A DNA stretch of 16,301 nucleotides from an uncultured Gilliamella sp. (lineage in GTDB: Bacteria; Pseudomonadota; Gammaproteobacteria; Enterobacterales; Enterobacteriaceae): positions 1 to 16,301 of the forward strand of contig CALYQY010000052.1 in NCBI GenBank assembly GCA_945291235.1, in the 5' to 3' direction. The position numbers and the translations under genes were made by a program. The notes beneath the pieces were generated by a model. That model had not been told where the DNA came from. It saw nothing but the letters and a program-made list of their open reading frames with translations, and did not search any database. Each line of letters begins with the position of its first letter. The stretch's first letter is position 1. Below, in pieces: positions 1 through 14,751 of this stretch.

Positions 1-71
1 CCTCTCACACTACACCCATAATAATGAGGTAGCGAAGTATACGCTTTTATGCAAAGATTCTCAAGTATTAT

Positions 72-93
72 CTTATTTTATGCGAAAAATAAG
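72..93. repeat. Small inverted repeat upstream of the lysR-type gene
   Basis: Perfect 8-bp arms (CTTATTTT / AAAATAAG) flank a 6-nt loop. The repeat lies about 100 bp before the LysR start, where a regulator could bind, but it is AT-only in its arms apart from one C/G pair and could be chance. No gene is visible in 1-191. Confidence 0.3.
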
Positions 94-127
94 TAGCGAC
101 AAGGTAAATTTAAATAATCGACAAATA

Positions 128-155
128 TTGTGTAAATCTAAAATTCTCCTATACT
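128..155 (+). promoter_or_regulatory. Possible sigma-70 promoter of the LysR-type gene
   Basis: A TATACT -10 hexamer (150-155, 5 of 6 to consensus) lies 16 bp after a weak TTGTGT -35 (128-133). Transcription would start near 162, about 30 nt before the start codon at 192. The -35 is poor, so this is a weak call. Confidence 0.35.
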
Positions 156-191
156 GTCTTGGGCACAGATCAGTTAAGAGAGTTTGATGAC

Positions 192-1091
192 ATGAATCTA
201 AAACAATTAAAGTACTTTCAGGTACTGGCTAAAACACAACATTACACATCAACATCAGAATATTTCTCCATTAGCCAACCTAGTTTAAGTCATTCAATTT
301 CAGAACTTGAAAAAGAAGTAGGAATCAAACTGTTTCAAAAACGAGGGCGCAATGTCGAACTGACAAAAGAGGGTAAGCAGTATCTAACTTATGTAGAACA
401 AGCTTTAAGCGCCTTGTCAGAAGGTGAACAATTTGTTAGAGAGCTAACCAGCGTTTCGCATGGGCATATCGGGCTAGCTTTCATCTATTCTATAAGTACC
501 AATTACATGCCAAAAATCATTAAAGCTTTCTTAGATCAACCGGACAATAAAAATATTACTTTCTCATTTTATGAAGGAATGTCACAAAATATTATTGAAG
601 GGTTGAAAGCAAAAAAATATGAAATTGCGATCTGTTCCCGTTTGCAAGATGAACCCGATGTTCATTTTCAAAAATTAACTAAACAAGAACTGGTGTTTAT
701 AATTTCTAACGATCACCCGTTATCGAAACGTAAAAAACTCGATTTAAAAGATCTGATTAACGAACCGCTAATCTTATTTACCGAAAGAAGTGGAATGAAA
801 AATGTCGTTGATGAGATGTTATATAAAACAGGGGTAAAACCCAATATAGCTTGTCGAGTAGAAACCGAAGGTGCCATGATGGGATTAGTTTCAATCAATT
901 ATGGTATCGGTATTATGCCAAGAGTGTTGATACCTGAAGAGTTTAACGTAACGCTGGTGCCGATGAGTAAAAACTATCAAAAAAGAGATATCTTTATTGC
1001 CACCATGGAAAACAGACCACTTTTGCCTGCGGCACAAAAATTTTACCACTTTTTAATCGAACATAGCGATGATGCAATCTTTGGCCGGTGA
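192..1091 (+). CDS. LysR-family transcriptional regulator
   Basis: A 299-aa LysR-type regulator. Residues about 3-62 form the winged helix-turn-helix, with the family pattern LKQLKYF followed by SQPSLSHSISELE and a wing ending LTKEGK. Residues about 90-295 form the periplasmic-binding-protein-like effector domain. ATG 192 is chosen because it begins the canonical LTTR N-terminus and has a purine-rich AGAGAG site upstream; an in-frame TTG at 159 would add 11 unconserved residues. The gene is co-directional with, and 288 bp before, a shikimate/quinate dehydrogenase, with a 34-bp inverted repeat in the gap. LysR proteins such as QuiR control shikimate/quinate use in some Firmicutes, so a role sensing shikimate or quinate is inferred from context only. 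The effector cannot be read from the sequence. Confidence 0.9.
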   Translation: MNLKQLKYFQVLAKTQHYTSTSEYFSISQPSLSHSISELEKEVGIKLFQKRGRNVELTKEGKQYLTYVEQALSALSEGEQFVRELTSVSHGHIGLAFIYSISTNYMPKIIKAFLDQPDNKNITFSFYEGMSQNIIEGLKAKKYEIAICSRLQDEPDVHFQKLTKQELVFIISNDHPLSKRKKLDLKDLINEPLILFTERSGMKNVVDEMLYKTGVKPNIACRVETEGAMMGLVSINYGIGIMPRVLIPEEFNVTLVPMSKNYQKRDIFIATMENRPLLPAAQKFYHFLIEHSDDAIFGR

Positions 1092-1124
1092 TAGCCAATA
1101 ATTAACAATATTGCAGGTAGCATC

Positions 1125-1167
1125 AAATCAGATTGATTTTATTTGGCACAAATGCCAAATAGAATCA
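1125..1167. repeat. Large inverted repeat between the LysR gene and the dehydrogenase gene
   Basis: Two 15-bp arms (1134-1148, TGATTTTATTTGGCA; 1153-1167) match at 14 of 15 positions and flank CAAA; the core ATTTGGCA/TGCCAAAT is perfect. The left arm also takes part in a smaller overlapping palindrome (1125-1130 with 1134-1139), so two hairpins would compete in RNA. No T-run follows on either strand, so it is not an ordinary terminator. A LysR operator or a stem protecting the lysR mRNA 3' end is more likely. Confidence 0.6.
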
Positions 1168-1326
1168 GGCTACGATCATCGCCTTGCAAGTCAGAAAATT
1201 TTCAGTCAATAAGTCGGAATAATTATTTTTTATATATTAAACATATTGTTATAAAACAAAACATTAACTGTATCTATAAATTAAGAAAAAATGATTTAAT
1301 TTTATAATAAATATGCTTTAATACTC

Positions 1327-1356
1327 TTGATAAAGATTTTATTTATTCGCTTTAAT
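1327..1356 (+). promoter_or_regulatory. Possible promoter of the dehydrogenase gene
   Basis: TTGATA (1327-1332) and TTTAAT (1351-1356) each match consensus at 5 of 6 positions, separated by 18 bp. Transcription would start near 1363, just before the AAGGAG site at 1369. A perfect TATAAT also occurs at 1303-1308 with a weaker -35, so the true promoter is uncertain in this very AT-rich gap. Confidence 0.3.
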
Positions 1357-1379
1357 TTTCTAACTTTCAAGGAGATTAT

Positions 1380-2210
1380 ATGAGCCAGTTCACGCCATAT
1401 AGCATATACGGCATTATCGGTTATCCTTTAGGGCATAGTATGAGCCCACTAATTCATACGACATCATTTCAAGATTATGGCATTCCAGCAGTTTTAGTCC
1501 CATTTCCTACCCCACCAGAAGAAATTGCAACTCTGTTTAAATCGGTCAGATTACTTAATATAAGGGGATTATGTGTCACCATTCCACATAAGCAAACAAT
1601 TATCCCTTATTTAGATGAAGTAACTGAACATGTAAAAAAAGCTGGGGCAGCAAACTTAGTTTATTGGGATGGCGATAAGCTTTGTGGTGATAACACAGAT
1701 ATTGTTGGCTTTATGCAGCCCCTTGAACAGAAAAAGTTACCACCAGAGTATAAAAAAGTTTTATTACTTGGTGCCGGTGGCGCAGCGCGTGCCGCTGTGG
1801 TTGGATTGCATGATCTAGGCTATACCGATATCACTGTTACCGATATTGTAACCGATCTACCAGAAGCTTTAGCCAAAGAGTTCAACCTCAAGGTTGTTGC
1901 CTGGGAAGATCGTCATAAAGTTGAAGCACAAATTATTATTAACTCAACGCCGCTAGGAATGAAAGGTAAATTTGAAGATCAAACACCTTACGAACAAGAT
2001 TGGTTTAAAGGCAAAGGTGTGGCTTATGATATTGTCTACACCCCTTATAATACAAAATTCCGACAAGCAGCAGAAAAAGCTGGCTGGGACTCGATATCAG
2101 GGCGTGAAATGTTTATAGGTCAAGCAAATGCGCAATTTAAAATTTGGACAGGAAAAGACCTTTCTGAAAAAGCCAAACAAGCGGTCATCGATGCTTTAGC
2201 TGAAAAATAG
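1380..2210 (+). CDS. Shikimate/quinate dehydrogenase (AroE/YdiB family)
   Basis: A 276-aa cytosolic dehydrogenase that interconverts shikimate and 3-dehydroshikimate, and possibly quinate and 3-dehydroquinate. Visible substrate-site residues are S20/S22 (GHSMSP), catalytic K71 (VTIPHK), N92, catalytic D107 (GDNTD) and Q248. The Rossmann glycine loop is GAGGAA at 131-136. At the end of beta-2, where E. coli AroE has Asn-Arg-Thr and a second Arg that hold the NADP 2'-phosphate, this protein has D155, I156 and L160. In known NAD-dependent quinate/shikimate dehydrogenases an Asp in this region contacts the adenosine ribose, so NAD preference is inferred. The AAGGAG site at 1369 fixes the start. 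The neighbours (LysR, YdiL-like, AroL, two YdiM/YdiN-type MFS) suggest an accessory, possibly catabolic copy rather than the housekeeping aroE. Confidence 0.9.
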   Translation: MSQFTPYSIYGIIGYPLGHSMSPLIHTTSFQDYGIPAVLVPFPTPPEEIATLFKSVRLLNIRGLCVTIPHKQTIIPYLDEVTEHVKKAGAANLVYWDGDKLCGDNTDIVGFMQPLEQKKLPPEYKKVLLLGAGGAARAAVVGLHDLGYTDITVTDIVTDLPEALAKEFNLKVVAWEDRHKVEAQIIINSTPLGMKGKFEDQTPYEQDWFKGKGVAYDIVYTPYNTKFRQAAEKAGWDSISGREMFIGQANAQFKIWTGKDLSEKAKQAVIDALAEK

Positions 2211-2221
2211 ATCAAAAAAGT

Positions 2222-2250
2222 ATGCATCAAACCGCATTTGTTTGGTGCAT
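2222..2250. repeat. Hairpin between the dehydrogenase and ydiL genes
   Basis: An 11-bp stem including one G-U pair (left arm 2222-2232, right arm 2240-2250) with a 7-nt loop lies 11 bp after the dehydrogenase stop. On the + strand it is followed by AATAATAAA rather than a T-run, so it is a poor intrinsic terminator. It may stabilise or process mRNA, or serve as a binding site for the YdiL-like protein encoded 109 bp downstream. Confidence 0.5.
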
Positions 2251-2358
2251 CAATAATAAATTTATACACTTCACTCTAGGTGTTTAGTTCAACTATTGAA
2301 AAATAAATAGGGTGTTAGCGAGTTGTATAAATGAAAAATGTTATCAAAAGGAGTCATT

Positions 2359-2712
2359 ATGACCAATTTAGAATTACAGGCATATCGTCGTTTTCTGATG
2401 TTAAAAGTGCCAGAGGCAAGTGAATATATTGGTAAAACGGATGCTAGCACATGGCATGAATGGGAAAACGGTTCAATACCTGTGCCGGAATCGGTGGCAA
2501 ATGCCATGCAAGAACTGAAAAAATTGCGAAGTGACAAAATCAATATCATCATTAATAGCATTAATGATCGCGTCGGTAGCAATACGATTCGTTATTTTAT
2601 GACTTATGCCGAGTTTAAAAAGGTCAATCCCGATCTTGACGTTATTCAATGGCGATTGCACCAATCCATAGCCACTGAGCTCTATTTTCGTGGCTTAGAA
2701 AAGCTGTGCTAA
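2359..2712 (+). CDS. ydiL: YdiL-like helix-turn-helix protein (Aca2/YdiL family)
   Basis: A 117-aa protein similar to E. coli YdiL from end to end. The shared signature is an N-terminal ELQAYR segment, a WHEWENG recognition-helix region (about residues 33-40), an RVGSNTIRYF segment, and a C-terminus ending LEKLC where YdiL ends LERLC. The fold is a small lambda-repressor-type HTH plus a dimerisation part; the related Aca2 proteins repress anti-CRISPR operons. The start at ATG 2359 follows a strong AAAAGGAG; an in-frame ATG 21 bp upstream would lie before that site. In E. coli ydiL also adjoins ydiM, ydiN and ydiB, so the locus association is conserved. The target and ligand are unknown; no anti-CRISPR gene is visible here. 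Confidence 0.85.
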   Translation: MTNLELQAYRRFLMLKVPEASEYIGKTDASTWHEWENGSIPVPESVANAMQELKKLRSDKINIIINSINDRVGSNTIRYFMTYAEFKKVNPDLDVIQWRLHQSIATELYFRGLEKLC

Positions 2713-2755
2713 TTGGCAACCATAATAGGATATAGCAGATTATAAAAATCAACGA

Positions 2756-2773
2756 TGTAAACTTTAGTTTACA
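2756..2773. promoter_or_regulatory. TyrR box (strong) upstream of aroL
   Basis: TGTAAA-CTTTAG-TTTACA matches the TyrR consensus TGTAAA-N6-TTTACA at all 12 defined positions. E. coli aroL is TyrR-regulated through several boxes, so site and gene agree. The centre lies about 160 bp before the aroL start. Confidence 0.85.
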
Positions 2774-2840
2774 AAATTGAGCATTTCATTTTGTGATTAA
2801 TTTAAATAAATTCATAACGTTAAATATTTATCAAATAAAA

Positions 2841-2858
2841 TGTAAAATAAATGTTGCA
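2841..2858. promoter_or_regulatory. Second, weak TyrR box upstream of aroL
   Basis: TGTAAA-ATAAAT-GTTGCA matches 10 of 12 defined positions and keeps the invariant G and C separated by 14 bp. Its centre is 85 bp (about eight helical turns) from the strong box, which suits cooperative binding of a strong and a weak box. AT-richness makes a chance match possible. Confidence 0.5.
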
Positions 2859-2924
2859 AAATGGCAAGTGAATCACTAGCATAGTTAGCATATTGTGAGA
2901 TCTGTATATCTAAAAGGACACAAA

Positions 2925-3437
2925 ATGAATAATACAATTTTTTTAGTTGGTGCAAGAGCCGCAGGCAAAACCACGATGGGAAAGATGTTAGCCAACAAGT
3001 TAGCGTATTCTTTTATTGATACAGATTGTCATCTACTTGAAACCACACAAAAAACCGTTGCTGAAATAGTTGAAAAAGAGGGTTGGGAAGGCTTTCGTGC
3101 AAGAGAGAGCCAAGTACTTGTTGATACAACAAAGCCCAATCGTGTTATTGCAACTGGCGGGGGAATGGTACTGGCTGATCATAATCGAGATTTTATGAAA
3201 GAAAATGGCATTGTGATTTTTCTTTCTGCGCCAGCTGCAACGCTAGCGGCTCGTTTAATGAAAGACCCAAATGTTGCCCAGCGCCCCTCTTTGACAGGTT
3301 TATCGATTGTTGATGAAATGGAAAAAGTATTAGCTGACCGCTTACCACTCTATCATGATGCAGCACATCATGTTATCAATGTCGATCAGGATGAAAGTCA
3401 GATTCTCGCTCAAATATTAACAGTATTACAAAATTAA
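2925..3437 (+). CDS. aroL: Shikimate kinase II (AroL type)
   Basis: A 170-aa P-loop kinase that phosphorylates shikimate to shikimate-3-phosphate with ATP, a step of the chorismate pathway. Visible features are the Walker A GARAAGKT (9-16), the magnesium/shikimate DTD (32-34), R58 in FRARE, the GGG loop (78-80), lid R120 (RPSL) and R139 near the adenine. TVAEIVE, GFRARE and VIATGGG match E. coli AroL rather than AroK. E. coli AroL has 174 aa. ATG 2925 is chosen because an AGGA site lies just upstream and the protein then starts like AroL; a GTG at 2895 would add ten residues. The gene has its own TyrR-boxed upstream region and a terminator after it, so it is probably a separate transcript from the dehydrogenase and ydiL genes. 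Confidence 0.93.
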   Translation: MNNTIFLVGARAAGKTTMGKMLANKLAYSFIDTDCHLLETTQKTVAEIVEKEGWEGFRARESQVLVDTTKPNRVIATGGGMVLADHNRDFMKENGIVIFLSAPAATLAARLMKDPNVAQRPSLTGLSIVDEMEKVLADRLPLYHDAAHHVINVDQDESQILAQILTVLQN

Positions 3438-3469
3438 TATTAATCATCATTCTTATCATGATCATTATT

Positions 3470-3500
3470 AAAAATGCCGCCTAAACGTGGTATTTTTTTT
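3470..3500 (+). terminator. Rho-independent terminator after aroL
   Basis: An 11-bp stem with two G-U pairs (left arm 3470-3480 ending TGCCGC, loop CTAAAC, right arm from 3487 starting GTGGTA) runs into eight T residues at 3493-3500. It starts 33 bp after the aroL stop. The rest of the 294-bp gap to the next gene is AT-rich with no firm promoter; a CRP half-site-like TGTGA lies at 3616. Confidence 0.85.
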
Positions 3501-3731
3501 GATAATAAAAAAGAATAGATTTTACTAATCTTATAAAATAATTTTATGTATAAGAATAATTCTTGCGCAAAAACATGCTATTTTTTTTATAAATAGTTTA
3601 AAATCTATAAATAAATGTGACGCAGGTTAAATTTTAGCAATAAATTTGTACTTATCGCTTTCAGATTAATATTGATACTTGTATATTGAATGTAGTTAAA
3701 GTTTTCAATTTTAAAATATGGAGTATTACCA

Positions 3732-4931
3732 ATGGATAATCGAAAGGTCAATTCATATGGAATTGTCGGTTCAATTTATGCTAATTATATTATTCAAAGT
3801 ATTGCGCTGATAGTAATAATGCAATTCTCCCTAGATCTGTTTACCCAACTCAATGCCGATCTTGTTGATCTTGGCTATATCGCTTCCGGTATTGGAATTG
3901 GTAAGATAGGTCTAATGTTTATTGGCGGGTTATTATCAGATAAATTTGGGCGAAAACTGTTTATCTTATTAGGTATGAGTTGCTATGCCATTTTCTTTAT
4001 CGGCATGACTTTTTGTACTAATATTCATGTCGCCTTTTGTTTAGCTATTGCAGTCGGTGCCGGAAACTCATTTTTAGATACCGGTTCAATGCCGGCATTA
4101 ACGGAATGTTTTCCTAATTCGGCAGGCTCAGCAAGCGTACTGATTAAAGCATTTATCTCAATTGGTTCTTTAGTCCTTCCTTTTATTGTCACATTTTTTC
4201 ATTCCAATCACATATGGTATGGCTGGGCATTTTGGGGTTTCACTTTTTATCTCTTAATTAATTGCTTATTAATACTCCCGCAAAAATTTCCGCATAAAGA
4301 CACCGCTATCAAAGGGAGTAAAGGTTCAGGGGACTATTTTAAAGCTACGCCTCGATTTGAAATTGAAGGCATTTTATTAACGCTGATGGGATTTACCACC
4401 ACAGCAACTTTCGTTGTTATCTTACAGTGGTTACCCACTATCGCAATGAAAAGCGTAAATATGTCTGATGATGACGCCAACCTGCTGATTAGCTGTTACA
4501 GTACGGCTTCGATCATTTCGGTTTTTGCAACAGCATTTATCGTAAAACGATTCTTAAAACCGATCTTTTGTATCATTATATTGCCGGCGCTATCTGCCAT
4601 TGTTCTGATTTTATTTTATTTCAATATTTCACCATTAATGTGCCTTATTGCCGCTATCGGCATGGGCTTTACTGCTGCTGGTGGCGTATTGCAACTCACA
4701 CTGGTTGTGATGCAGCAAATGTTCCCAACCCGTAAAGGATTAGCGGTCGGTTGTATGTACACCTTTAGTGGACTGACTTTCGTTGTTATACCACGTATTG
4801 TACCGAAACTGGCAATGACTAACGTTAGTTACGCAATTTTGCTCGACTTTTTTATCGCTATGTTAAGTGTCATTTTAGGATCGATTGTTTTTTATCGGTT
4901 TAAAAAAGTTATTGATATCAACAAAATATAA
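3732..4931 (+). CDS. MFS transporter, YdiM/YdiN-like (first copy)
   Basis: A 399-aa inner-membrane major facilitator with about 12 hydrophobic segments. MFS motif A reads GGLLSDKFGRK at 65-75, followed by a signature helix with GAGNSFLDTGSMPALTECFP, which mirrors E. coli YdiN (ANSALDTGGYPALMECFP). The C-terminal half has GFTAAGGVLQL, also found in the next gene and close to the YdiN version. GGAG at 3720 supports ATG 3732. The E. coli homologues adjoin the quinate/shikimate dehydrogenase gene ydiB, and here the dehydrogenase and aroL lie upstream, so uptake of shikimate, quinate or a related cyclic acid is plausible. The substrate is not shown by the sequence. It probably arose by duplication together with the next gene. 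Confidence 0.88.
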   Translation: MDNRKVNSYGIVGSIYANYIIQSIALIVIMQFSLDLFTQLNADLVDLGYIASGIGIGKIGLMFIGGLLSDKFGRKLFILLGMSCYAIFFIGMTFCTNIHVAFCLAIAVGAGNSFLDTGSMPALTECFPNSAGSASVLIKAFISIGSLVLPFIVTFFHSNHIWYGWAFWGFTFYLLINCLLILPQKFPHKDTAIKGSKGSGDYFKATPRFEIEGILLTLMGFTTTATFVVILQWLPTIAMKSVNMSDDDANLLISCYSTASIISVFATAFIVKRFLKPIFCIIILPALSAIVLILFYFNISPLMCLIAAIGMGFTAAGGVLQLTLVVMQQMFPTRKGLAVGCMYTFSGLTFVVIPRIVPKLAMTNVSYAILLDFFIAMLSVILGSIVFYRFKKVIDINKI

Positions 4932-4962
4932 ATCGCAAAAAGAGACAAAATTACAAAATACT

Positions 4963-4996
4963 CGCCTACTTTTGTAATAAAAACTCAGGCGTTTTT
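4963..4996 (+). terminator. Possible attenuator-like terminator between the two MFS genes
   Basis: CGCCT (4963-4967) pairs with AGGCG (4987-4991), followed by five T residues; an inner TTTT/AAAA pair helps. A perfect 9-bp inverted repeat, ATTACAAAA (4950-4958) with TTTTGTAAT (4970-4978), overlaps it and would hold CGCCT in its loop, so the two folds exclude each other. The stem is short, so the terminator is weak. It may reduce read-through from the first transporter into the second. Confidence 0.45.
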
Positions 4997-5022
4997 ACAT
5001 AATTTATATAGGAAGTAAATAG

Positions 5023-6303
5023 ATGAAGAATAAATATTTAGGCACAGCGGTTTGTATGTATATGAACTATTTTGTGCATGGAATGGGCGCAATCATTCTT
5101 GGTTTAAATATTGACTATTTAGCCGCGCAATTTAATCCGCAAGTAGCGTATCTGTTTAATATCGCTAAAGATGCACTCACGCCCGATCAGCTGAGCCAAA
5201 TTGGTGAGGCAAAACAGAGTGTTTACAACGTGATGATGGGATTAGGTGTTGGTCGTTTACTCGTGTTATTTGTCATGGGAACATTATCAGATAAGTATGG
5301 ACGTAAACCATTTATTGCCTTAGGTGGATTATTTTATATTGGCTTCTTGCTTGGCATTTTATTTAGCCCTAACGCTGATATTGCGTTCTTGTTTGCCGTA
5401 TTAGGCGGTATTGCCAACTCAACACTTGATGCAGGTACATACCCGGCATTAATGGAATCATTCCCGAAATCACCGGGATCGGCTTCTATTCTCACTAAAG
5501 CGGCGATTGCCGCTGGTCAATCGGTTTTACCGTTAATTATGGGGATTATTATGGCAAGTCAGGGGTATTATGGTTGGTCATTTATCTTCTGCTGTGTTGT
5601 TCTGGCTTTAAATGCGCTAATCGTGCTTAAAATGCCATTCCCTAACCATAAAATTACCCCAGAAGAGGAAGTAAAAGACTTGCAAACCATTGAAAAAAAT
5701 CCTGCAACATTGAAACAGAATTCAAATAGAATGATCGAAGGAATCTGTTTTATTGTCATTGGTTTTACCTCAACGGCAACATTTTATTTAGTCTCTTCTT
5801 GTTTGAAAGATTTTTCACAAACGGTTGCAGATATGGATGCCGCAGGTGCCGTTAAAGCTTTTTCTGCGTATGGTATCGGTACACTTGCTAGCGTCTTTTT
5901 AACATCAATTTTAGTTAAAAGCTTAATTAGACCTGTTTATATTGTGGTGCTCTATCCGTTACTGTCTACCTTTATGCTGATCGCCCTGTATTCTTATCCG
6001 ACCCCAATGATGTGTATTGTCGGCGGGTTTGTGCTTGGATTTACCGCAGCAGGCGGCGTATTACAATTGGCACTCACCACTATGGCGGAGTTTTTCCCGT
6101 CCGGTAAAGGTAAAGTATTGGGTATTTTCTTTACCTCTTCAAGCTTTGCCACCATGGTTATTCCATTTATAATCGGCTGGGTATCAACGATGTATGGTTT
6201 GCGTTACGTTATGCTTACTGATGCCTTCTTTGCCGGTTTAGGAACGGTAATGGCGCTGATTGTGCTGATGCGTTATCGTAAAACTTTTAATGTGACAAAA
6301 TAA
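5023..6303 (+). CDS. MFS transporter, YdiM/YdiN-like (second copy)
   Basis: A 426-aa inner-membrane major facilitator, clearly a paralogue of the preceding gene. The N-terminus (YMNYFVHGMG, 13-22) matches E. coli YdiM (YFNYLVHGMG) closely. Motif A is GTLSDKYGRK (86-95), and NSTLDAGTYPALMESFPKSPGSA also follows the YdiM/YdiN pattern. Compared with the first copy it carries about 23 extra polar residues between the first two membrane segments (roughly 37-66), on the periplasmic side by standard MFS topology. GGAAG at 5011-5015 precedes ATG 5023. The gap to the first copy is 91 bp and a strong terminator follows. A substrate related to shikimate or quinate is inferred from the neighbourhood; the extra loop may give it different specificity. 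Confidence 0.88.
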   Translation: MKNKYLGTAVCMYMNYFVHGMGAIILGLNIDYLAAQFNPQVAYLFNIAKDALTPDQLSQIGEAKQSVYNVMMGLGVGRLLVLFVMGTLSDKYGRKPFIALGGLFYIGFLLGILFSPNADIAFLFAVLGGIANSTLDAGTYPALMESFPKSPGSASILTKAAIAAGQSVLPLIMGIIMASQGYYGWSFIFCCVVLALNALIVLKMPFPNHKITPEEEVKDLQTIEKNPATLKQNSNRMIEGICFIVIGFTSTATFYLVSSCLKDFSQTVADMDAAGAVKAFSAYGIGTLASVFLTSILVKSLIRPVYIVVLYPLLSTFMLIALYSYPTPMMCIVGGFVLGFTAAGGVLQLALTTMAEFFPSGKGKVLGIFFTSSSFATMVIPFIIGWVSTMYGLRYVMLTDAFFAGLGTVMALIVLMRYRKTFNVTK

Positions 6304-6403
6304 GCAAAATATTCACGCTGAAATAGGGGTGACAGAGAATTGTATTTAGTTGATCATAACTATATTTGCCACCACTATTTAAAATAATTTCTATTATCTC
6401 AAT

Positions 6404-6436
6404 AAAAAAGCACACCACAAAAAAGGTGTGCTTTTT
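6404..6436 (+). terminator. Rho-independent terminator after the second MFS gene
   Basis: AAAAAAGCACACC pairs with GGTGTGCTTTTT around an ACAAAAAA loop. The A-run and T-run make it potentially bidirectional. It closes the shikimate/quinate block about 100 bp after the stop; the rest of the 325-bp gap before argA holds the ARG boxes and no gene. Confidence 0.88.
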
Positions 6437-6577
6437 AACTATTGGTAATGTAACCTTATTTCACCTTTAAACATTATCCAGCCTGAACTTTGCCGAATTT
6501 CATCGCCCTTTGCTACCGCTAAGTTAGCAATGAATATTGTCTATATTTTAACAAATATTACTTGCTAATCCGCTAAA

Positions 6578-6595
6578 AATAAATAAAAATACACA
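6578..6595. promoter_or_regulatory. ARG box 1 (ArgR operator) upstream of argA
   Basis: This 18-mer matches the ARG-box consensus wnTGAATwwwwATTCAnw at all but two defined positions (G to A and T to A). It is exactly 3 bp from box 2, the canonical spacing for ArgR hexamer operators. Confidence 0.75.
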
Positions 6596-6598
6596 AAA

Positions 6599-6616
6599 TC
6601 TGAATAAATATTCATT
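6599..6616. promoter_or_regulatory. ARG box 2 (ArgR operator) upstream of argA
   Basis: The core TGAATAAATATTCA (6601-6614) matches the E. coli ARG-box consensus at every defined position. It ends 12 bp before the argA start codon, so bound ArgR would block the promoter or leader. This implies arginine repression of the first arginine biosynthesis step. Confidence 0.92.
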
Positions 6617-6628
6617 TTGGTGGTTGTA

Positions 6629-7960
6629 ATGATGAAAGAAAGAACAACTGAATTAGTTGAAGGGTTAAGGCATAGCGTCCCTTATATCAATGCACATCAT
6701 GGAAAAACGTTTGTTATTTTATTAACCGGCGCTGTTCTAAAAAGTAATAATTATTCAAGTATCATTAGCGATATTGGTCTACTGTATAGTCTGGGCATTA
6801 AACTGGTCATTGTTAACGGCGCTCGTAATCAAATTGATGAATCACTAAAACAACACAATATCGAACCGAAATACTATAAAAACACCCGCATCACCGATGC
6901 TCCCACCCTTGACATCGTCAAACAGGTCACCGGGCTATTACAGCTTAATATTACCGCCAGTTTATCGATGAGCTTGAATAATACCCCGTTGCAAGGTGCG
7001 CATATTAATGTGGTAAGTGGTAATTTTGTCATTGCCCAGCCACTCGGTGTTGATGACGGCATTGATTATTGTCATACCGGTAAAATTCGCCGGATTAATG
7101 GTGAAGCGATTGATGAACAATTAAATCGAGGCTCGATTGTTTTATTAGGACCGGTGGGAGTTTCTGTAACCGGTGAGAGTTTTAACTTAGCATCAGAAGA
7201 TGTCGCAGCAGAGGTTGCCATTCGACTAAAAGCCGATAAGCTGATTAGCTTTTGTGCCGAACAAGGTGTGCTTGATGAACAAGGGCATGTTATAACTGAT
7301 CTGTTTCCAATCGATGCCGATAATTACGTCGATCAAAAAGCGTTACAAGGAAAACACTTATCGAGTGAAGCTCGCTTTTTACGTGCAGCGTCGAAGGCTT
7401 GCCGTAATGGTGTACGGCGCAGTCATTTAGTGAGTTATCTGGTTGATGGCTCGATTTTACAAGAGTTATTCTCTCGGGACGGGATTGGAACGCAAGTTGC
7501 CATGGAACACTCCGAACAAGTTCGCCAAGCAACCATTAACGATATCGGTGGCATCCTAGAGCTGATACGCCCACTGGAAGAGCAAGGCATTTTAGTTAAA
7601 CGCTCAAGAGAACAATTAGAGATCGAAATTGATAAATTTACCATAATCGAGCGGGATAACATGACAATTGGGTGCGCTGCGCTTTATCCATATCTGGATG
7701 AAAAAATGGGTGAAATGGCTTGTGTTGCCATTCATCCACAATATCGTAACTCCTCACGAGGCGATCTGTTAATTGAAAAAATCGCTGAAAGTGCTAATCG
7801 TTTAGGATTAGAGAAAATCTTTGTTTTAACAACCCGCAGCATTCATTGGTTTAGAGAAAAAGGCTTTAATCCTGCTCAAGTCGATGATTTACCGATTAAA
7901 AAGAAACAGTTGTACAACTATCAGCGTAATTCCAAAATTTTAATGTTAGATATTTTATAA
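6629..7960 (+). CDS. argA: Amino-acid N-acetyltransferase (N-acetylglutamate synthase)
   Basis: Makes N-acetylglutamate from acetyl-CoA and glutamate, the first step of arginine biosynthesis. The 443-aa length equals that of E. coli ArgA. Residues about 1-290 form the amino-acid-kinase-like domain (GARNQID at 64-70; [19 protein letters not shown] at about 113-131), the arginine-sensing part. Residues about 297-443 form the GNAT acetyltransferase domain, with [10 protein letters not shown] and a QLYNYQR tail as in E. coli. The first-strand loop reads LLTGAVL where E. coli has MLGGEAI, a small divergence in a part not needed for acetyl transfer. ATG 6629 is chosen for the match to the E. coli start (M-x-KER); ATG 6632 is equally possible, and GGTGG at 6619 serves both. 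Tandem ARG boxes lie directly upstream and a strong terminator follows, so it is a single-gene unit. Confidence 0.96.
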
Positions 7961-7972
7961 TTGCCTCAACCC

Positions 7973-7999
7973 AAAGTCCGCTTCGGCGGACTTTTTTTT
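7973..7999 (+). terminator. Rho-independent terminator after argA
   Basis: AAAGTCCGC, a UUCG tetraloop, GCGGACTTT and a run of eight T residues, 12 bp after the argA stop. This is a textbook intrinsic terminator. It sits between argA and the convergent PTS gene. Confidence 0.96.
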
Positions 8000-8056
8000 A
8001 CCTAGCCAATGGCTAATTGATACAATGAATATAGGCTAAATGGCGCACCTATAATA

Positions 8057-9310
8057 TTAATGAAACAGTTTCATCACTCCTTCGGTTAGCAGTGAAAGCG
8101 TGGTAAAATCCGGATCGGCAAAAGTGACCCCTTCAACCCCTAAAAAGGCGAAAAGTGGTAATGCTAAAGCCGGTAAAATACACAATAATAACCCATTGAT
8201 AAACGCCGCAATTATTGCACCTATCGCCCCGCCGGTTGAATTACCAAAAATAGCTGCCGTTCCGCCAGTTATAAAACTTGCCATAATTCCTGGAATAATA
8301 ATGGGTAAACCAATAAAAGGAAAAATCACCACGCAAGCCACTTCAGTAAAAAAGCTGACGATAAACCCGACCAACACACAGTTTGGCGCTTTATCAAACA
8401 ACACCATAGGATCAACGGCTGGCACACAACCGGGCGCAACAACTTGTGCAAAGCCTTTAAAAGCCGGAATAATCTCTTCGGTAAAAATAGCCACCCCTTT
8501 TTTAGCAATATATAAACCGCCGGCAAAAATAGCTGACTGCTCCAAAGCAAAAATAATAAAGGTATTATTCTTCAATATCTGTTTTAAATATTCCGGTTGT
8601 GAAAATAATCCAGAGAGGCACAACAAAATAAACATCGTGATAAAAGTTGCCACATCAGCTTGCCTTAAGAAGCTAAAACGGTCGTTAATTTTAATCTGCT
8701 CAATATCGTTTTTGGCATTGCCAATTAACCGACCACTATAGGCGCCAATCAAGTAAGAAATAGTGCCGGCATGCGCTATGCAATAATCGTTATGGCCAAT
8801 AATTTTTTGGCTAAATCGAGAGAGCAAAGTAGGAAATATTGCCATATAAAACCCAATAATTATGGCACCAGAAGCCACGATAATCACACCGTCATAGCCC
8901 ATACCTTTAAGCACCGCAGTATAGGAAAATGCCATAAACAAAATGAGATGCAGCGATAAATAGATCGATTTAAACCGTGTGAAACGGGCTAATAACAAGT
9001 TAATAATCATGGCAAAAAATAAGATAAATGCCGCACTTGCGCCCAAAGACTCCATTGTTAAGGCAGTGATAGCTTCATTACTCGGTACTACGCCATGCAT
9101 GCCAAATGCGTGGGTAAACATATTACTAAACATCACCAATACGCCACCAAGTATCTTGCCACCGGTCTTAATTAAGACAAATCCAATAAAAGATAACAGC
9201 GTTCCGGTAATAATCTTCGATAATTTAGCCCGTTGTAAAACTAAACCGATAAAAGCGACTAAAGCGATAATAATCGCAGGTTGCCCAAAAATATTTAAAA
9301 ATAGGTCCAT
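8057..9310 (-). CDS. PTS EIIC permease, UlaA/SgaT (ascorbate/galactitol) family
   Basis: A 417-aa polytopic membrane protein (E. coli UlaA has 465 aa), nearly all hydrophobic segments. Family marks are a cytoplasmic IAHAG segment (178-182, as in UlaA SIGHQQ), PGCVPAVDPMVLFDKAPN (293-310, as in the UlaA PGAVLAID...APNAV segment), and IIPGIMASFITGGTAAIFGN further on. It should translocate and deliver a sugar or sugar acid for phosphorylation by EIIB. No EIIA, EIIB or catabolic gene is adjacent, so it is an orphan that must use partners encoded elsewhere; the substrate is unknown and L-ascorbate should not be assumed. ATG at 9310 follows an AGGGAG site. A CRP-box promoter lies upstream. Confidence 0.85.
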   Translation of the reverse strand: MDLFLNIFGQPAIIIALVAFIGLVLQRAKLSKIITGTLLSFIGFVLIKTGGKILGGVLVMFSNMFTHAFGMHGVVPSNEAITALTMESLGASAAFILFFAMIINLLLARFTRFKSIYLSLHLILFMAFSYTAVLKGMGYDGVIIVASGAIIIGFYMAIFPTLLSRFSQKIIGHNDYCIAHAGTISYLIGAYSGRLIGNAKNDIEQIKINDRFSFLRQADVATFITMFILLCLSGLFSQPEYLKQILKNNTFIIFALEQSAIFAGGLYIAKKGVAIFTEEIIPAFKGFAQVVAPGCVPAVDPMVLFDKAPNCVLVGFIVSFFTEVACVVIFPFIGLPIIIPGIMASFITGGTAAIFGNSTGGAIGAIIAAFINGLLLCILPALALPLFAFLGVEGVTFADPDFTTLSLLTEGVMKLFH

Positions 9311-9346
9311 ATACTTACTCCCTAAACAATATTGAAACTAAAATTT

Positions 9347-9352
9347 ATTATA
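9347..9352 (-). promoter_or_regulatory. -10 element of the EIIC gene promoter
   Basis: A perfect TATAAT on the minus strand, 37 bp before the start codon. Counting from it, transcription starts near 9340. The -35 region (9370-9375) reads CAACTA on that strand, unlike consensus, which fits a promoter that needs an activator bound at the CRP box. Confidence 0.6.
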
Positions 9353-9370
9353 ATTAAAACATTGTTTTGT

Positions 9371-9392
9371 AGTTGTGTTAGGGATCACAATT
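9371..9392. promoter_or_regulatory. CRP box upstream of the EIIC gene
   Basis: The core TGTGT-TAGGGA-TCACA (9374-9389) matches the CRP consensus TGTGA-N6-TCACA at 9 of 10 defined positions. Its centre (9381.5) lies about 41.5 bp before the start predicted from the -10 element, the class II activation position. Carbon-catabolite control of this PTS gene is therefore likely. Confidence 0.7.
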
Positions 9393-9693
9393 TAACGAAA
9401 GTAAGCATCAAAATGTTACAGTGCGACACTAAACAACCGGTTATAAGCTGAAACTCATTGCGACAAAAAACAATCGCAATGATTAAAAATCGTTGAGACT
9501 AGGTTACCTTGCTTTGTTATTTGGCAAGGTGTGGAGAGTGGGAAGACCTTTTTTATAGAATAATCATAAAAATCAAAAGACTAATTTTTCAGGAGGAGTT
9601 CTTAAAAGATGAGTTGTGTGTTAGAGAGAAAAACAGTTAGAAAATTGAACGATTGAAGTTTTTTGGAAAAAGCTGTATTAGGCGACAAAATAT
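9393..9693 (+). other. Gene-free stretch with nested hairpins and a strong Shine-Dalgarno
   Basis: This noncoding stretch holds three structures. Hairpin A has 9-bp perfect arms (9455-9463 / 9474-9482). Hairpin B has 7-bp perfect arms (ACCTTGC 9506-9512 / GCAAGGT 9524-9530). The right arm of B can instead pair through AAGGT with ACCTT at 9546-9550, which runs into six T residues (9549-9554). Then an AGGAGGAG site (9591-9598) precedes ATG 9609 and only 15 codons to a TGA at 9654-9656. The peptide is not recognised. This resembles a 5' leader with an attenuator, but the next gene, mutH, is on the opposite strand. It may be the remnant of a lost gene or a small RNA locus. Confidence 0.35.
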
Positions 9694-10365
9694 TTAATCG
9701 TTGATGACACAATTGAGGATTTGTCGGGTAAATGCTTTTTTTAGATAAAAGCCTCTTGGTCGGGTTAATATTATTTGCCCGTGTTCGCCAATTGCTTGGG
9801 TTAATGCTTTGCCGTTAGCCGCTTTCGGTCTAATTTGCAAATAAGTGCCATAACGGGCTGTAATTTTTTCAACTTGTCCTAGAGCAATCATATCCATTAA
9901 TTCTTGCCAATCTTGTTTAAGTTGCTGTTCCTGCTCGGCAGTGGGTGTCCATAAGATAGGGTGGCCGACTTTACGTTCAGCAAGGGGAATGGATCTTTCA
10001 CCTTCGATTGGGATCCAAAGGACTTTATTAAGTTTATATTTTACGTGGCTGGTTTCCCAAATAACGCCGTAATTTGCCATGAGCGGTGTGACACTGACAA
10101 AGGTGGTCTCTAACGGTTCACCTTGTTTATCAACCGGAATGGTTTTAAGCTCGATGCCTAAGTCGGCAAAATCCTGCTGTGCTTTACTGCCGGCATTCGC
10201 TCCTAAAAATGTTTCAAGCAAATTACCCACCCAACCTTTTTGCTTGTTTAAATTAGCGGGAATTACAATATTTAAATATTGTGCTATTTCACCAAAGCTG
10301 TAGCCGGCAACCAGTTTGGCTCGATTTAGTAATTCTTGTTCATTTTTGGGAAAAAACAGTGTCAT
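9694..10365 (-). CDS. mutH: DNA mismatch repair endonuclease MutH
   Basis: Nicks the unmethylated strand at hemimethylated GATC sites when activated by MutS and MutL. The 223-aa protein (E. coli 229) carries the full active site: E51 (GNLLE), D65 (QQDF), E72 and K74 (IELK), and K111 (YKL), the positions of E. coli E56, D70, E77, K79 and K116. [35 protein letters not shown] and RGFYLKK match the E. coli protein closely. The start is set at ATG 10365 ([10 protein letters not shown] start, as in the family); a longer reading would need a TTG inside a perfect inverted repeat. A functional MutH implies Dam methylation in this organism. It follows the FMN-dependent oxidoreductase gene, 73 bp downstream of its stop. 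Confidence 0.95.
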
Positions 10366-10395
10366 AAAGCAATTCTTACCAGCGAACGGATTAAA

Positions 10396-10418
10396 CACAG
10401 TCAATTATATTGACTGTG
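10396..10418. terminator. Perfect hairpin between the oxidoreductase and mutH genes
   Basis: CACAGTCAAT (10396-10405), a 3-nt loop and ATTGACTGTG (10409-10418) form a perfect 10-bp stem, 20 bp after the oxidoreductase stop on the minus strand. Only three T residues follow in that direction, so termination would be weak. It could also be an operator or leader hairpin for mutH, whose start is 30 bp away. Confidence 0.45.
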
Positions 10419-10438
10419 AATCGTAAAAGAAAGGCTTA

Positions 10439-10987
10439 TTAGCTTAGCTTTTCAATCCAACTGGCATAACTATTAATAATTTGTGAAAGGAATGCTTTGG
10501 TTTTTTCGCTAATATTACCGTTTTCATCAAAAGCAGTATTGATATTGCCGATATACGCTTCAGGCTGTTGTAAGGTAGGCATATCAAGAAAGACTAAAGA
10601 TTGACGTAGTTGATGATTAGCACCAAAACCGCCGATCGCACCTTGTGATACGGAAACCACCGCCGCAGGTTTTTTCGCCCAGGCATTTTTACCATAAGGG
10701 CGAGAGCCAACATCGATCGCATTTTTAATTACTGCCGGTAATCCACGATTGTATTCCGGTGTGACAAAAATGACGCCTTGGCAATCGGTAATTTCTTGAC
10801 GGAAAAGGGTATAAGAAGCGGGAGGGTTGTCGGTATCGATATCTTCGTTATATAACGGCAGATCGCCGATCTCAATGATTAATAGTGATAAAGAAGGTGG
10901 GGCAATTTGTTGTAAAACTTTAGCAACTTTTAAGTTGTACGAATCTTTACGTAGACTTCCAACCAATACAGCAATTTTTTTACTCAT
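10439..10987 (-). CDS. NAD(P)H-dependent FMN reductase, ChrR/YieF-like
   Basis: A 182-aa flavodoxin-fold oxidoreductase. The FMN phosphate loop is GSLRKDSYN (10-18), the second flavin loop is TPEYNRGLPAVIKNAID (76-92), and SQGAIGG (114-120) contacts the isoalloxazine side. These match E. coli ChrR/YieF (188 aa), a soluble quinone and chromate reductase, including HQLRQSLVFLD where ChrR has HLRQILVFLD. The likely role is two-electron reduction of quinones or other electrophiles. ATG 10987 is chosen because AAGGGG precedes it; an in-frame GTG at 11020 lies in the hairpin upstream. It sits between dps and mutH in the same orientation, a set consistent with oxidative and DNA-damage protection. 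The exact substrate is not determined. Confidence 0.88.
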   Translation of the reverse strand: MSKKIAVLVGSLRKDSYNLKVAKVLQQIAPPSLSLLIIEIGDLPLYNEDIDTDNPPASYTLFRQEITDCQGVIFVTPEYNRGLPAVIKNAIDVGSRPYGKNAWAKKPAAVVSVSQGAIGGFGANHQLRQSLVFLDMPTLQQPEAYIGNINTAFDENGNISEKTKAFLSQIINSYASWIEKLS

Positions 10988-11010
10988 TTGTCGACCCCTT
11001 AAATTTGAAT

Positions 11011-11034
11011 TAAGAGACACAAATGTGTCTCTTA
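11011..11034. repeat. Perfect hairpin between dps and the oxidoreductase gene
   Basis: TAAGAGACACA and its complement flank a 2-nt centre, giving an 11-bp perfect inverted repeat 30 bp after the dps stop and 23 bp before the oxidoreductase start. On the minus strand only a short TTAATT follows, so termination would be weak. It could limit read-through from the abundant dps mRNA, stabilise it, or bind a regulator. Confidence 0.55.
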
Positions 11035-11064
11035 TGGGTTGTAATAATTGAGCATAATACTTTT

Positions 11065-11619
11065 TTAGTGACCAGATGAATCAAGTCGACGACCGGTTTC
11101 AAATAAGAACCATGCACGGCGTTCAGCTTGGTCAATCCACTCTTCAATCAAGCTTGCTGTTGCTGAGTCGTTATATTTATCACAAATATCATGAGCAACA
11201 CGCATGCGCTCGGTGAGTTTAATATTATCTTGGCAAAGTTCGGCAAGCATATCAGACGGTTCAACAAAATCAGCATCATTATCAGAAATACTTTGTAATT
11301 TTGAGATATGGCCGATTGAGCGTAATGTCGTACCACCTAATTTACGTACACGTTCTGCAATAGGGTCTGTCATTGCAAATAATTCTTCACCATGATCATC
11401 TAACATTAAGTGGTAATCACGGAAATGTGGTCCACTGACATGCCAATGGAAATTTTTAGTTTTTAAATAAAGGGCAAATACATCTGCCAAAACGGAATTC
11501 ATTGCGCCGGAAATATCTCTTGATGCTTTTTGCCCTAAATCAGTTGGAAACAAAATTGCTTTTTGTTGGAGCCTTTTTGCAGAAGTCGTACTTTTGGTAC
11601 TTTTAGTGCTTTTAGCCAT
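11065..11619 (-). CDS. dps: DNA starvation/stationary-phase protection protein Dps
   Basis: A ferritin-like dodecamer subunit that oxidises Fe(II) with hydrogen peroxide, stores iron and protects DNA. The 184-aa protein contains the inter-subunit ferroxidase residues H58, H70, D74, D85 and E89, aligned with E. coli H51, H63, D67, D78 and E82 (FHWHV, YHLMLDD, DPIAER). The N-terminal tail is rich in lysine, serine and threonine (KSTKSTKSTTSAKR, 3-16), like the flexible tails that bind DNA in E. coli Dps. ATG 11619 follows an AGAGGAG site. The oxidoreductase and mutH follow in the same orientation, separated by hairpins. No clear OxyR or sigma-S element could be assigned upstream. Confidence 0.95.
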   Translation of the reverse strand: MAKSTKSTKSTTSAKRLQQKAILFPTDLGQKASRDISGAMNSVLADVFALYLKTKNFHWHVSGPHFRDYHLMLDDHGEELFAMTDPIAERVRKLGGTTLRSIGHISKLQSISDNDADFVEPSDMLAELCQDNIKLTERMRVAHDICDKYNDSATASLIEEWIDQAERRAWFLFETGRRLDSSGH

Positions 11620-11750
11620 ATTAGATTCTCCTCTAAATTTATAATAAAAACGCTTTGTAGTATCAAATTACGCTAACTATGAAGCAAAGTCCAATAAAAA
11701 ACAGCTATTGTTGACTATCACTGCTATTTTAGCAATCTATGAATCTGTAA

Positions 11751-11848
11751 AACTTTTAAAGTTAACTTTTGTTTTAAATATTTTCTTTCAAAATAAAAGA
11801 AAATATTTCAAAATGTGACAAAGTTAAAAGTTTTTGATTTTTAAAGTT
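11751..11848. promoter_or_regulatory. Operator-like repeat cluster upstream of srlA
   Basis: The hexamer AAAGTT or its complement AACTTT occurs at 11751, 11758, 11764, 11820, 11827 and 11843; the first three build the palindrome AAAGTTAACTTT (11758-11769). Between the clusters lies a perfect 13-bp inverted repeat, AAATATTTTCTTT (11776-11788) with its complement at 11796-11808. Part of it, TATTTTCTTT, recurs before srlR (15203-15212). These are candidate SrlR operator elements, though AT-richness inflates such matches. Confidence 0.45.
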
Positions 11849-11856
11849 GTTACTAT
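11814..11856 (+). promoter_or_regulatory. Possible CRP-dependent promoter of the srl operon
   Basis: An extended -10, TG-T-TACTAT, lies at 11848-11856. A one-sided CRP site, TGTGA-CAAAGT-TAAAA (11814-11829), is centred about 41.5 bp before the start expected near 11863. Only the left CRP half-site is good. E. coli srl is CRP-activated, so the arrangement is plausible. Confidence 0.45.
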
Positions 11857-11887
11857 TCCTTCGAAATTTAACTCAATAGGAGACAAT

Positions 11888-12436
11888 ATGATTGATGCAA
11901 TTTCGTTTGGAGCCGAATGGTTCATAGGTTTATTCCAAGAGGGCGGCAAAGTGTTTGTGGGCATGGTAACAGCCATTTTGCCATTGTTAATTTCGTTACT
12001 CGTTGTGATGAATGCGCTAATTAAATTTATTGGGCAAGATCGGATTGAGCGTTTAGCGCAAGCTTGTGCCGGTAATCCGATTTCACGCTATCTGTTATTA
12101 CCTTTAATTGGCACATTTGTATTTTGTAATCCAATGACATTAAGTTTAGGTCGCTTTATGCCAGAGTTTTACAAGCCAAGTTATTATGCAGCTTCTTCCT
12201 ATAGTTGCCACTCCATGAATGGGCTATTTCCCCACGTTAATCCCGGTGAGCTGTTTGTCTATTTAGGGATTGCCGCTGGTTTAACCCAATTAAATCTTCC
12301 ATTAGGACCGCTAGCGGTTAGCTATTTTCTTGTTGGTCTTGTCACTAACTTCTTTAGGGGTTGGATAACTGACTTTTGTACTGCCATTTTTGAGAAAAAA
12401 ATGGGTATCAAATTAGACAGAAAAGTTCATCTCTAA
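11888..12436 (+). CDS. srlA: PTS glucitol/sorbitol EIIC component SrlA
   Basis: Membrane subunit of the sorbitol-specific phosphotransferase system, which takes up D-sorbitol as sorbitol-6-phosphate. The 182-aa protein (E. coli 187) begins with an amphipathic [10 protein letters not shown] segment followed by membrane segments near 22-46, 68-90, 120-135 and 138-157. The family-typical [20 protein letters not shown] lies at 79-98. ATG 11888 follows AGGAG at 11878-11882; an upstream in-frame TTG at 11834 lies in the promoter region. It is the first gene of srlA-E-B-D-gutM-srlR and works with SrlE, whose C-terminal half supplies the remaining membrane part. Confidence 0.94.
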
Positions 12437-12470
12437 ATATTTATCAATCATTATAAGAAGGAATACAACA

Positions 12471-13478: not shown

Positions 13479-13493
13479 ATGGTATGAACAAAA

Positions 13494-13518
13494 GCACGGG
13501 GATGAATTTCATCCCTGC
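13494..13518 (+). repeat. Intra-operon hairpin between srlE and srlB
   Basis: GGGATGA (13499-13505) pairs with TCATCCC (13509-13515) around ATT, extended by an outer GCA/TGC pair across a 2-nt bulge. No T-run follows. It probably protects or processes the mRNA between the membrane and soluble PTS genes. Confidence 0.6.
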
Positions 13519-13580
13519 TAAAAGTAGTGGAAAAAATAGAAATTTTTGGATTAAGAACTTACAAATAAAGAAGGTTAATA

Positions 13581-13949
13581 ATGTCTAATGTTATTTATCA
13601 TTCAAAAATCGATCTAATCGGTGAATTTGCTCAAGAAGCGTTAGCTGACGGTATGTTAATTCTGTTTAAAAATGGCGCGCCGGCAGATTTGGCGGATTAC
13701 TGTTTTGTGCATAGTCATGACGATTTAAAACACGATCTGCAAGTTGGGCAAACACTCCAATTAGGCAAGCACCTTTATCACATCACAGCTGTTGGCGATG
13801 TCGCTAACATCAATTTTCGTCAATTGGGTCACATCACATTAAGATTTGACGGTAGTAGCCAAGCGGAATTACCCGGAACAGTACATGTAAAAGGCGACAT
13901 ACCCGCTCAACTTTTTGTGGGTGATGAAATTAGCATTGTAAATAATTAA
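13581..13949 (+). CDS. srlB: PTS glucitol/sorbitol EIIA component SrlB
   Basis: The soluble 122-aa EIIA subunit (E. coli 123) that carries phosphate from HPr to SrlE. The phosphorylation histidine is H44 (or H46) in YCFVHSHDDL, matching E. coli EYCFIHCHGEL, where the first His is the site. GAPADL before it and GHITLRFDG and PGTVHVKG in the C-terminal half are family signatures. AGAAGG at 13570-13575 precedes ATG 13581. srlD starts 10 bp after its stop, indicating tight coupling. Confidence 0.95.
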   Translation: MSNVIYHSKIDLIGEFAQEALADGMLILFKNGAPADLADYCFVHSHDDLKHDLQVGQTLQLGKHLYHITAVGDVANINFRQLGHITLRFDGSSQAELPGTVHVKGDIPAQLFVGDEISIVNN

Positions 13950-13959
13950 GGAATATAAA

Positions 13960-14739: not shown

Positions 14740-14751
14740 TTAAAATAGCGC

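Follow-up and report, generated by a model that had tools for sequence, protein, structure and literature searches.

A Gilliamella locus in which aroE and aroL stand among YdiM/YdiN-type transporter genes, a likely remnant of a larger Orbaceae quinate/shikimate block

Gene content and conservation of the locus

The DNA analyzed in this work (the window) is a stretch of 16,301 nt from an uncultured Gilliamella sp. (GCA_945291235.1, contig CALYQY010000052.1, positions 1-16,301, forward strand), in which a lysR gene, a gene for an AroE-family dehydrogenase, ydiL, aroL and two genes for transporters of the major facilitator superfamily (MFS), here called mfs1 and mfs2, follow one another. An earlier note had proposed that these six genes are a rearranged form of the ydi locus of E. 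coli and may constitute one quinate/shikimate salvage module with its own shikimate kinase. Our analysis suggests that they are likely to represent two interleaved sets, what remains here of a once larger quinate/shikimate block of the Orbaceae, with accessory genes for uptake standing among core genes of the chorismate pathway. The features of the locus, with the proposed sets in parentheses, are as follows.

192..1091, + strand: lysR, QuiR-like LysR-type regulator (accessory); Pfam LysR_substrate and HTH_1
1272..1281, + strand: ATCTATAAAT, candidate regulator site 5' of aroE (a lead only)
1380..2210, + strand: AroE-family shikimate dehydrogenase (core; not YdiB); TIGR00507, 208.7 bits, cut-off 200.2
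2362..2712, + strand: YdiL-family helix-turn-helix protein; PF08965 Aca2_YdiL, 119.6 bits
2756..2773, + strand: TyrR box 5' of aroL; 12/12 matches
2854..2882, + strand: promoter-like pair TTGCAA-17-TAGCAT for aroL, found by eye; stretch conserved in the alignment
2925..3437, + strand: AroL, shikimate kinase II (core, apparently its own transcription unit); NCBIfam NF002988, 237.4 bits, cut-off 161
3470..3497, + strand: terminator-like hairpin 3' of aroL; -14 kcal/mol, z -4.1 for 3455-3505
3603..3612, + strand: ATCTATAAAT, candidate regulator site 5' of mfs1 (a lead only)
3732..4931, + strand: mfs1, YdiN-like MFS transporter (accessory); PF07690, best E. coli match YdiN, 37%
5023..6303, + strand: mfs2, YdiM-like MFS transporter (accessory); PF07690, best E. 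coli match YdiM, 39%
6399..6445, + strand: terminator-like hairpin 3' of mfs2; -20 kcal/mol, z -6.3 for 6395-6450

The order and families of the genes given in the earlier note were borne out by Pfam and NCBIfam scans and by comparison with E. coli, and the ydiL-ydiM-ydiN-ydiB-aroD cluster is found in E. coli K-12, as had been said. The two loci are alike in their YdiL family and their YdiM- and YdiN-like MFS and, in the relatives G002, G039 and G041, in having ydiB and aroD in the same block. In contrast to E. coli, a LysR gene leads the Gilliamella locus, a different AroE-type dehydrogenase gene and aroL are interleaved in it, and the ydiB-aroD pair of G001 lies elsewhere. Genome-wide statements in this work refer to G001 and its relatives, not to the window's own assembly; G001 is the nearest genome compared, with 57% of sampled 31-letter words in common with the window and an mfs2 that is 100% identical to that of the window. 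Among the 44 Orbaceae genomes, 39 reached 90% completeness or more with no more than 5% contamination and are referred to as good; G033-G037 are not among them.

Retrieval by the YdiL of the window gave 21 related loci, 19 from Gilliamella and two from Orbaceae bacteria. aroE, ydiL and aroL were together in 20 of the 21, the last one (L015) stopping after ydiL, and mfs1 adjoined aroL in 17, being missing in L002, L007 and L008, with L015 stopping before this point. The linkage of these genes is beyond chance and is conserved in relatives.

The dehydrogenase had been counted among the families of the ydi locus, which holds for the superfamily but not for identity with YdiB. YdiB was rejected as the identity of the window enzyme, which shares 29% identity with YdiB and 30% with AroE of E. 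coli, scored 105 bits with the YdiB model NF009390 (cut-off 349) and narrowly clears the general aroE model. Lys71 and Asp107, which we take to be the catalytic residues of AroE, are invariant in the alignment used. The window-type AroE was found in 42 of the 44 Orbaceae genomes and in all 39 good ones; the two genomes that lack it are 67% (G033) and 81% (G037) complete. A second aroE elsewhere had been proposed as a check, and G001 contains, besides the window type, a YdiB (402.5 bits, cut-off 349) beside aroD and a protein matching NF009202 (430.8 bits, cut-off 306), which we take to be the protein named SdhL. Since no AroE-family match over cut-off was seen in G001 beyond these three, the window gene is the foremost candidate for a biosynthetic AroE, and the sequences indicate that it probably has this role. 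Outside the Orbaceae, Syntrophotalea carbinolica (64%) and Pelobacter propionicus (58%) are among the nearest named relatives in the best 120 of 7184 hits, and this suggests a transfer long ago.

Alternatively, the window enzyme could be a catabolic quinate/shikimate dehydrogenase, with the SdhL-type protein or YdiB serving biosynthesis. In the alignment it has an acidic residue at the position of what is presumably the NADP motif of E. coli AroE, and use of NAD is therefore likely. Furthermore, aroE lies directly 3' of lysR in the window, is a divergent neighbor of mfs1 in G042 and G043, and is near other catabolic-looking genes in G044. However, the window type is the only member of the family found in all 39 good genomes, YdiB being missing in six of them and the SdhL type in G042, and it is kept where MFS and YdiB are gone, so that we consider a catabolic AroE unlikely. 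The surroundings in G044 (L103, 7805-16743) comprise an enolase-superfamily gene, a GntR regulator, a Gfo/Idh/MocA dehydrogenase and two mfs1-like genes.

Transporters, YdiB and the LysR regulator

It was found that the YdiM/YdiN-type MFS and YdiB are present in the same 37 of the 44 Orbaceae genomes and that neither is present in the other seven, with no discordant genome; among the good genomes both are present in 33 and absent in six. The genomes without them are G033, in which only an AroK-type match was found and none for AroE, AroL, AroD, YdiB or MFS, and the good genomes G003, G015, G022, G026, G031 and G040, the last with one weak 24% MFS match that was not counted. Of the 37 YdiB calls, 35 were confirmed (27 by the YdiB model and eight by best match to the YdiB of a fetched locus), those for G012 and G034 being the initial homology calls. 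AroE, AroL and AroD, in contrast, are each present in every one of the 39 good genomes. When the six good genomes were placed on an AroE tree (42 rows, leaving out G033 and G037), they represented four separate losses, with MFS and YdiB gone each time. Across the order (394 genomes, at most four candidates scored per genome), MFS was found in 31 genomes, YdiB in 32 and both in 31; few genomes outside the Orbaceae carry either (four, five and four, respectively), and the YdiB of the one odd genome, G376, is at a contig edge. The gene for a TIM-barrel protein found in relatives follows mfs2 in a similar manner, being intact in 13 of 17 genomes with an intact mfs2 versus one of 27 others (G044); on the tree, an average of 7.5 of eight independent pairs agree (p with a median of 0.008 and a range to 0.07).

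When the effector domain of the window LysR was compared with solved structures, PDB 5TED (Lmo0488) was matched with 170.8 bits over residues 89-291, with 76 of 203 positions identical and no gap, and BenM came next with 85.1 bits. The best solved match of the TIM barrel of relatives is Lmo2234 (44.9 bits), and that of their YdiB is 3tnl, presumably Listerial (391.5 bits; E. coli YdiB 378.4). 5TED is the Listeria QuiR with bound shikimate, according to passages of PMC11602165, PMC7837296 and PMC9973260, through which the Listeria QuiR system (Prezioso 2018) is cited here; the LysR effector domains of the two systems are homologous, and the TIM-barrel gene and YdiB are further likenesses, whereas in the Orbaceae block an aroL with TyrR-type control is present. 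The lysR product may thus sense shikimate or a relative of it, and a QuiR-like regulator together with the strict co-occurrence of MFS and YdiB upholds the link to quinate/shikimate uptake that had been proposed. lysR, like the SDR and OYE genes described below, was sought in the fetched loci only; it was intact in those of 14 genomes, mfs2 being present in 13 of these, and the genomes with mfs2 in which no lysR was seen are G008, G016, G034 (20-kb locus not covered) and G043.

The same 10-mer lies 5' of both aroE and mfs1. At least two matches to ATCTATARAT occurred in seven of 200 shuffles of the window, and the motif is found exactly at -129 to -135 of mfs1 in four of seven native lysR-bearing Gilliamella loci (G001, G012, G028 and G032) and with one change in a fifth (G029), while in four intact acquired blocks (see below) it lies between mfs2 and the TIM gene instead. 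As a LysR operator it is a post hoc and uneven candidate, a lead only.

The MFS proteins could also be exporters or carry another cargo, of which a shikimate by-product, isoprenol and copper have been proposed for YdiM/YdiN in print (in the part of PMC10588857 concerned), and the link with YdiB would then reflect overflow of dehydroshikimate or quinate. Consistent with this, YdiB of E. coli yields quinate as a by-product during shikimate production (as described within PMC8788726). On the other hand, a QuiR-like regulator heads the locus, the block contains further catabolic-looking genes, and deletion of ydiN in E. coli increased the shikimate yield about 1.3-fold, which was read as less re-uptake by the authors in the same portion of PMC8788726. 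Export or a different cargo is in our view quite improbable, and it is most likely, judging from the gene families and their co-occurrence, that mfs1 and mfs2 take up quinate or shikimate, on which YdiB and AroD would act. Such import is independently supported by the effect of the ydiN deletion and by the depletion of quinate on colonization of the bee gut, to which several members contribute (as stated in part of PMC5726620).

Separate control of aroL

A strong TyrR box has at least ten of 12 matches to TGTAAA-N6-TTTACA (as defined in part of PMC4374768), and the box upstream of aroL in the window is perfect and is the sole perfect match in G001. When the best-matching box lying no more than 300 bp from the longest reading frame was sought for 40 Orbaceae aroL copies, including acquired ones, 35 had at most one mismatch and 36 at most two, compared with a mean of 3.4 mismatches in shuffled sequences. 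A box with at most one mismatch was found for none of the aroE (0/40), mfs1 (0/35), mfs2 (0/16) and lysR (0/15) genes and for one of 26 ydiB genes. In the E. coli control, aroL had boxes with one and two mismatches and five other genes had nothing within three. The box was also kept where aroL is placed elsewhere, in G043 (one mismatch) and G044 (none). Over the whole of G001 the pattern was not enriched, with one palindromic site versus three for a reversed control pattern, and the evidence is therefore one of place and conservation. G001 encodes a TyrR homolog, which scored 495.7 bits with NF008085 (below the cut-off of 576; matched from model position 102 on) and 95.1 bits with HTH_TypR (cut-off 30). 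TyrR boxes 5' of the AroL gene are a feature shared with E. coli, in which the neighbors are different (aroL-yaiA-aroM instead of ydiL-aroL-mfs1).

A generic scan of promoters and terminators was no better than shuffles (26 promoter-like hits versus 27.1 expected, four terminator-like versus 4.6) and listed neither the promoter-like pair nor the hairpin of aroL. In a home-made terminator search, hairpins were found 3' of aroL in 18 of 40 copies (7/120 in shuffles), of aroE in 9 of 40 (8/120), of ydiL in 7 of 29 (5/87), of mfs1 in 10 of 35 (5/105) and of mfs2 in 6 of 16 (1/48). Because the promoter region of aroL is conserved, a hairpin follows aroL and the intergenic gaps among the six genes are 91 to 294 bp, a single operon from lysR to mfs2 was considered unlikely. 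On these signals aroL looks like a separate transcription unit under TyrR-type control, independent of its neighbors.

AroL was present in all of the good genomes that lack MFS and YdiB. AroK-type matches were found in 41 of the 44 genomes and in all 39 good ones, alongside AroL, and the two can therefore be regarded as an AroK/AroL pair as in E. coli; aroK had been suggested as something to look for elsewhere, and G001 has an AroK by best match.

These results bear on whether the locus is a single dedicated salvage module, in which import, dehydrogenation by the window enzyme and phosphorylation by its own kinase would feed chorismate. The genes aroE, aroL and mfs1 adjoin one another in G002, G038, G039 and G041 as well as in most Gilliamella; this adjacency, the QuiR-like regulator, and an acquired block in G004, G017, G035 and G037 in which aroL travels with lysR, mfs1, mfs2, ydiB and aroD would all fit such a module. 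However, AroE and AroL are retained by all six good genomes from which MFS and YdiB are absent, aroL appears to be under its own TyrR-type control with a terminator-like hairpin behind it, aroL is broken or absent in the acquired blocks of G024 and G007, which keep mfs1, ydiB and aroD, and the window enzyme is not YdiB, the true YdiB being encoded beside aroD elsewhere in G001. There is little probability, in our estimation, of a single module; the uptake link of the earlier proposal is supported, as is conserved linkage in relatives, and aroL as the module's own kinase is not supported; the window dehydrogenase is not the YdiB-type entry enzyme.

YdiL shares a Pfam family with Aca2, and its gene is near aroE-aroL in most Gilliamella loci; it was not seen in acquired blocks and is broken in G005 and G031.

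The block in relatives and a two-set interpretation

In three genomes of other genera everything is in one block. A single stretch in G002 and G039 contains lysR-aroE-aldo/keto reductase-ydiL-aroL-mfs1-mfs2 (inverted)-TIM-ydiB-aroD-SDR-OYE, the OYE gene of G039 running off the fetched stretch, and G041 has the same block minus the aldo/keto reductase. In G001 the block is split: ydiB and aroD adjoin none of the six window genes but each other, and TIM-ydiB-aroD-SDR-ABM-OYE lies 2.2 Mb along the contig from the window part (about 0.6 Mb if circular). aroE and ydiB are within about 10 kb in G029 and G030. The OYE at L147, 6998-9040, after ydiB-aroD-SDR-ABM, has 680 residues and is BaiCD-like (455 bits, cut-off 825).

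G003, the sister of G002 on the AroE tree, keeps aroE, ydiL, aroL and aroD together with a lysR remnant and a broken aldo/keto reductase gene, while MFS, YdiB and TIM are gone from the genome as a whole and the fetched locus has neither SDR nor OYE. G040, the sister of G041, keeps aroE, aroL and aroD; ydiL was kept in G003 and lost in G040. Compared with their sisters, these two genomes amount nearly to an experiment of nature, by which core and accessory genes can be told apart.

G004, G017, G035 and G037 carry a second block (L115, 2602-12558; also L116, L117 and L118), which reads lysR-reductase-aroL-mfs1-mfs2-TIM-ydiB-aroD-SDR and contains neither aroE nor ydiL. OYE was also seen there in G004, G017 and G037, and the contig of G035 ends earlier; there is a decayed copy in G024 and a remnant in G007. 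In trees of YdiB, AroL, MFS1 and MFS2 (FastTree, midpoint-rooted; groupings from part of the tree output, AroD tree not included), the second-block copies group with G002, apart from the native Gilliamella genes. Judged by its sequences, the second block of some Gilliamella is an acquired, foreign copy closest to that of another genus.

Elsewhere in the window, argA (6635-7960) is next after the six genes. A lone gene for a phosphotransferase system (PTS) EIIC of ascorbate (UlaA-like) type lies at 8057-9310 (minus strand) between argA and mutH; because it was matched in three of the 21 related loci, some of which end short of this point, the spot appears to be variable. Genes like dps, flavin reductase and mutH precede an operon of glucitol (gut/srl) type at 11888-16060, read by eye from translations as srlA, srlE, srlB, srlD, gutM and srlR. 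No Rfam family was found in the window at gathering scores.

The two sets could work together as follows. AroE would form shikimate from 3-dehydroshikimate, and AroL would phosphorylate it to shikimate-3-phosphate, aroL expression being set by TyrR according to the supply of aromatic amino acids. Of the accessory genes, lysR would respond to shikimate or a relative, and mfs1 and mfs2 would import quinate and/or shikimate. Quinate would then be turned into 3-dehydroshikimate by AroD and by YdiB, a quinate/shikimate dehydrogenase whose gene lies next to aroD in another place; the 3-dehydroshikimate may be passed by the core AroE and AroL/AroK to chorismate or used by other enzymes where extra genes exist. 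In relatives, the presence of TIM, SDR and OYE genes gives a hint of a fate other than chorismate. No 3-dehydroshikimate dehydratase was found among the window proteins scanned with Pfam and NCBIfam models, and the TIM barrel of relatives matched QuiC, a 3-dehydroshikimate dehydratase, weakly (33-34 bits, cut-off 1200).

Several observations weigh against the two-set interpretation. The four pairs that show co-loss are too few for significance (sign test, p 0.125), and the acidic residue of AroE makes a catabolic role possible for this enzyme. The aroL copies of G007, G015, G022 and G026 are without a good TyrR box (three mismatches), three of these four coming from genomes without MFS and YdiB, and the aroL of G042, which is placed elsewhere, has no box (four mismatches). 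If aroL were purely separate, its position beside mfs1 in the majority of Gilliamella and its presence in the acquired block would be left unexplained. In many genomes mfs1 and ydiB are kept although the fetched loci contain no lysR, and lysR is therefore not needed for them. Finally, ydiM of E. coli was reported to be needed for an active bo3 oxidase, and copper transport was suggested (in the corresponding part of PMC10588857).

A bolder extension of the two-set interpretation is that gut symbionts of the Orbaceae have a transferable block under a QuiR-like regulator for quinate/shikimate of pollen, with MFS importers and entry through YdiB and AroD, in which TIM, SDR and the BaiCD-like flavoenzyme convert dehydroshikimate into a product that is reduced or dehydrated. 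The core aroE, aroL and aroD are interleaved in such a block and would therefore be left behind by its decay. This is a tentative idea, which we think may well be wrong.

Relation to known systems and implications

It has been reported that YdiM/YdiN genes adjoin shikimate-pathway genes, most often ydiB, aroD and aroK (PMC10588857, 2023, in its section on linkage). The adjacency is the same as here; that section is without Orbaceae, co-loss with YdiB, the LysR regulator and TyrR control of aroL, and the role favored in the paper itself is one connected with bo3 oxidase and copper. In a 2024 survey of 95 Gilliamella genomes, no quinate biosynthesis or transport gene was noted for the seven genomes with quiA (in the passage of PMC11325843 concerned). 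Among the openly licensed PMC papers searched, none was recognized as treating this Orbaceae locus. As far as these searches go, the use of co-loss to divide the genes into core and accessory, the QuiR-like regulator that heads the locus, the TyrR-type control of aroL independent of its neighbors and the foreign second block are new.

The results correct the inference that linkage alone puts aroL in a salvage route. The strict co-occurrence of MFS and YdiB, their repeated co-loss and the QuiR-like regulator make the cargo of YdiM/YdiN testable by a small laboratory. They also bear on the use of pollen quinate by bee gut bacteria. If the more tentative extension were true, the transferable block would be a redox outlet for bacteria of a low-oxygen gut, and YdiM and YdiN, orphan transporters of E. 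coli, would have a substrate assigned to them.

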